The notes below the pieces were generated by a model. That model was not told where the DNA came from. It saw nothing but the letters and a program-made list of their open reading frames with translations, and did not search any database. Shown piece by piece: positions 180-494 of a DNA stretch of 34,816 bases. The position numbers and the translations under genes were made by a program. The stretch lies in the NCBI GenBank assembly GCA_025359845.1, contig JANYDT010000068.1, positions 1-34,816 of the forward strand, read 5' to 3'. This stretch comes from Acidimicrobiia bacterium. GTDB lineage: Bacteria > Actinomycetota > Acidimicrobiia > Acidimicrobiales > JANYDT01. The number at the start of each line of letters is the position of its first letter. The stretch's first letter is position 1.

Positions 180-494
180 ATGGCCCAGAAAATTCGTATC
201 CGCCTCAAGGCGTGGGATCACGAGATCATCGATCAATCGACCAAGTAGATCGTCGAGACCGTCGTGCGTACCAACGCCAAGGTGCGCGGGCCGGTACCGC
301 TTCCCACTGAGCGCCACCTGTACACGGTTATCCGCGGTCCTCACAAGGACAAAGACAGCCGCGAGCATTTCCAAATGAAGATTCATAAGCGCCTGCTCGA
401 CATTCTCGAGCCGACGCCGAAGACTGTTGATTCGTTGCAACGCCTGGAGCTTCCGGCCGGCGTCGACATCGAAATCAAAATTCAGACCGCCTGA
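180..494 (+). CDS. rpsJ: 30S ribosomal protein S10, interrupted by an in-frame TAG at codon 23
   Basis: Starting at ATG 180 (purine-rich GAAGAG just upstream), the frame reads MAQKIRIRLKAWDHEIID, the exact S10 N-terminus. It then meets TAG at 246-248 and continues in the same frame with IVETVVRTNAKVRGPVPLPT through to VDIEIKIQTA and a TGA stop. Without the TAG the product would be 104 residues, normal for S10. S10 is an essential small-subunit head protein and the NusE antitermination factor. In relatives this position holds Lys or Glu, so a single base change (AAG or GAG to TAG) explains the stop. The rest is fully conserved, which argues against an old pseudogene. Sequencing or assembly error, a suppressor tRNA, or a second intact copy are all possible. 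An annotation program might call only GTG 264-494, which would lack the first beta strand and is unlikely to be functional. Confidence 0.9.

Follow-up and report, generated by a model that had tools for sequence, protein, structure and literature searches.

The window (the whole stretch of DNA analyzed here, 34,816 nucleotides long and making up all of contig C107) opens on the head of a ribosomal protein operon and raises the question of how the gene for ribosomal protein S10, an essential protein, can carry a stop codon inside its reading frame. The rpsJ frame holds a single internal TAG at codon 23 and closes with a TGA at 492-494. Whereas an S10 gene is expected to have an uninterrupted frame, this one is broken at 246-248. 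As argued below, the TAG probably arose as a one-base error, or as a minority variant that entered the consensus, close to a contig break, and the rpsJ of the cell is probably ordinary. The coordinates of the features under discussion are collected in Table 1.

Table 1. Features at the start of the window that bear on the internal stop codon of rpsJ.
Feature	Position	Strand	Basis or remark
tuf 3' end, assembly branch point	1-141	+	All 141 bases match the ends of contigs C183 and C180 (100% identity)
rpsJ (ribosomal protein S10) frame, broken at codon 23	180-494	+	Translation; Pfam PF00338 match across the stop, E 1.7e-32
rpsJ codon 12, Trp	213-215	+	Tyr or Phe in 168 of 171 listed homologues; unusual, like nearby codon 23
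In-frame TAG (codon 23 of rpsJ)	246-248	+	Lys in 165 of 171 listed homologues
Open frame after the stop, 76 codons, GTG start	264-494	+	S10 residues 1-28 would be missing

Apart from this codon, the gene is what would be expected of an ordinary bacterial rpsJ (uS10, PF00338) at the head of an S10 operon, which it resembles in sequence, in length, in its place after tuf and in a full-length profile match. The Pfam Ribosomal_S10 profile aligned over positions 1-98 of its 98 positions, scoring 113.7 bits against a cut-off of 21.2, in one frame with one TAG inside. The observation in an earlier note on this DNA that the S10 frame is conserved before and after the TAG was thus borne out by a single match spanning the stop, and because conservation holds on both sides, rpsJ is not a decaying gene. 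The genome is a draft of 4,694,466 bases in 254 contigs, with a completeness of 93% and a contamination of 2.54%, and profile searches across this 4.69 Mb assembly returned no S10 match other than the one in the window.

All of the remaining ribosomal genes in the window are intact; many of the gene names used here are putative, assigned from operon order, and others come from Pfam. Between adk and infA (12508-15874) lies a long plus-strand frame of 756 codons matching neither Pfam nor NCBIfam, together with a minus-strand frame whose weak glycosyltransferase-like matches fall under their cut-offs. Downstream of truA (20816-22885), a second elongation-factor-G-like protein with all EF-G domains by Pfam is encoded, besides the fusA found on contig C183. 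Additionally, a HipA-like protein is encoded on the minus strand (28886-30340), adjoining the phenylacetate (paa) genes.

The identity of the residue expected at codon 23 was examined in 171 homologues, the best matches listed from two homology searches. In addition to the lysines counted in Table 1, these included two aspartates and one each of arginine, serine and glutamate. The expectation that relatives would have Lys or Glu therefore holds for lysine but not for glutamate, found in just one of the 171. At the order level, lysine was encoded at this position in all 27 loci parsed, from 30 given, with AAG in 21 and AAA in six. Amongst the matches listed for order relatives, the best of 174, no stop in rpsJ was seen (the weaker match of the genome itself lay outside them). 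The genus contains no further genome, and the one other genome in the family gave no S10 match. A rare-residue analysis of the operon considered 1018 columns in which all other genomes agree; this genome departs at 30 of them, a proportion inside the range of its relatives (0 to 3.9%), and rpsJ was not singled out.

The known kinds of UAG recoding (i.e., suppressor tRNAs, pyrrolysine and genetic code 15) are similar to the present case in that a UAG lies inside a conserved frame, here that of rpsJ, but this genome differs from them in having RF1, in using TAG as a stop and in the CUA tRNA not being found. RF1 is intact (477.3 bits). TAG terminates 10 of the 39 genes checked in the window, and these include all nine (rplP, rplN, rplF, rplR, rplO, adk, rpsK, rpoA and paaA) on which the earlier note had based its correct description of amber as a normal stop. 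A suppressor tRNA with a CUA anticodon, proposed as one way past the codon, was not found amongst the 38 tRNA genes that were detected and typed (matches at E <= 0.001), a set that is incomplete and lacks, for example, tRNA-Asn. Three weaker matches were considered as further tRNAs and rejected, as they are not tRNAs by ARAGORN. With regard to the tRNA set in general, tRNA-Leu with anticodon TAA is present as two genes (L060 and L071), and no tRNA-Asn gene was found in the assembly. The 82 bases 3' of the TAG contain no unusual RNA structure, folding no better than shuffled sequences (z -0.17). Altogether, the tRNA set, RF1, TAG usage and RNA folding give no positive sign of recoding (a CUA tRNA, with UAG unused as a stop or RF1 lost) or of a readthrough signal, and nothing that was found calls for a new decoding mechanism.

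These observations bear directly on the idea that the amber codon is genuine and that full-length S10 is made because either a suppressor tRNA that escaped detection or a near-cognate tRNA reads through it. Such readthrough would be consistent with the conservation that goes on past the stop, and given the incomplete tRNA set a suppressor could sit in DNA that was not binned. However, in addition to the intact RF1, the missing CUA anticodon and the unremarkable RNA downstream, efficient reading of TAG would lengthen other proteins of the window considerably, by 101 codons for rplN, 120 each for rplR and adk, and 121 for rpoA, and we regard this explanation as improbable. Still less probable is a more elaborate form of it, in which the codon would be decoded just enough to supply S10, so that the protein (which is also the antitermination factor NusE) would be metered by competition between RF1 and a suppressor tRNA. 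An intact second rpsJ had also been offered as an explanation; it would lie in DNA missing from the bin, and the window copy would be a fresh pseudogene. The 93% completeness of the assembly leaves room for such a copy, and tuf is seemingly present twice, with ends that differ after base 141; however, neither the Pfam S10 profile nor a DNA search found a second rpsJ in that assembly. The sole S10 match is the window copy, which heads the operon as rpsJ usually does, and a DNA search with positions 1-700 of the window matched elsewhere just the tuf ends, which makes a hidden second gene very doubtful. Least credible of all is a shortened S10 translated from the GTG at 264. Although a 76-codon open frame does start there, the product would lose conserved residues 1-28, and the ten best homologues to the 264-494 piece are 106-109 residues long. 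Finally, some cells of the sampled population may have carried a real nonsense allele that found its way into the consensus; such cells would be mutant, dying or recently mutated. A single base change turns AAG, the commonest codon of the relatives, into TAG, but rpsJ is essential and the assembly yielded no second copy; we consider this unlikely, if less so than the other alternatives.

The position of the TAG within the assembly points instead to a wrong base or minority variant. The exact 141-base overlap at the tuf end is common to three contigs, and rpsJ starts 38 bases, and the TAG 105 bases, beyond it. De Bruijn assembly at k = 141 leaves exactly such an overlap where the graph branches. 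C183 leads into this branch, carrying what we take from the translations to be rpoB, rpoC, rpsL, rpsG, fusA and tuf, and C180 leads out from its tuf end toward genes that we take on the same grounds to be secE and nusG. A tRNA-Trp was identified by ARAGORN on C180 beyond its tuf end. The two tuf ends diverge after base 141, with a TAA stop on the rpsJ side and a TAG stop on C180 (L072; L073), and because of this difference tuf appears, from sequence, to exist in two copies. Contig ends beside branches are likely sites of local errors and mixed variants, and an erroneous read, or a minority variant that passed into the consensus at the tuf branch, would produce what is observed here.

Frame breaks were also observed elsewhere in the draft genome. 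Amongst its 87 SDR-domain matches, 12 pair up as the halves of six loci in which the conserved domain is divided between two frames; one of the six has a TAG as well. The 230 SDR matches in relatives (131 in two closed and 99 in two fragmented genomes) contained no stops, and none of their loci was visibly divided in this way, a difference with a one-sided Fisher p of ~3e-4 for 81 loci against an approximate 225. A similar break was found in a gene tentatively named acyl-CoA-synthetase-like, and an ABC ATPase gene has one that is less sharp; six of these eight breaks shift the frame like one lost base and two the opposite way. The sharp one-base breaks in otherwise conserved SDR and acyl-CoA-synthetase-like genes (L103-L108, L131) are either errors or pseudogenes. 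On contig C56, an SDR domain ends part-way and another gene then starts. By contrast, only one of the 99 ABC matches carries a stop (TGA), and that match is weak; the other ribosomal genes of the window, as noted above, are intact.

Broader surveys gave a different impression. In a homology survey of 435 kb, the 103 regions of this genome gave about one frame break that was taken as genuine, compared with one in 110 and none in 70 in two relatives; of the two split events in the 103 regions, one falls antisense within the window and was taken as spurious. In-frame stops from this survey (30 here; 12 and 7 in the relatives), which at face value are commoner here, were set aside, many of them being on shadow frames. 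A codon-usage scan flagged three nonsense-like and no frameshift-like events in the 435 kb of this genome, 40 and 40 in G018, and 17 and 3 in G139, covering 361 and 400 kb of the two relatives. At face value this speaks against an excess of breaks here, but the scan was rejected as not comparable, with a G+C of 0.75 and 0.73 in the relatives against 0.64 in this genome, and most of the flags there were taken as shadow frames. Because the homology survey shows hardly any excess, the support that the breaks lend to an assembly error is moderate. Additionally, the SDR breaks are mostly frame shifts, not substitutions, and true pseudogenes amongst them are possible. The genome thus has some unexplained frame breaks, but they are not pervasive.

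The likeliest account of the rpsJ TAG is an error of one base in the assembly, or a minority variant taken into the consensus, because the gene is essential and single-copy in the assembly, no reader of the codon was found, an assembly branch adjoins it and other one-base breaks occur in the genome. On this reading, the rpsJ of the living cell would be ordinary and would encode lysine at codon 23. Amongst the three explanations offered in the earlier note, the one-base sequencing or assembly error is accordingly the one favored by the contig-break position and the other one-base breaks, while the second gene and the suppressor tRNA were not found.

Our literature search found no paper on an amber or nonsense mutation in rpsJ. 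A study of stop codons inside the frames of prokaryotic genes (PMC7918605) counts those that orthologues have in common, so as to exclude artefacts, and describes bacterial in-frame stops common to several species as occurring but mostly short-lived. The rpsJ TAG is like these in lying inside a frame conserved on both sides. It differs in being known from one assembly only, whereas those counted in the study are shared between orthologues.

The rpsJ TAG is most likely not a real feature of the organism. As an artefact it carries little weight beyond a warning, namely that an essential gene looks broken because of an error of one base close to a contig break, and that gene calling would give a truncated S10 from it. 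A real codon, on the other hand, would be a striking and directly testable case, since the living cell would then produce an essential ribosomal protein by way of a stop codon although its genome is not globally recoded.
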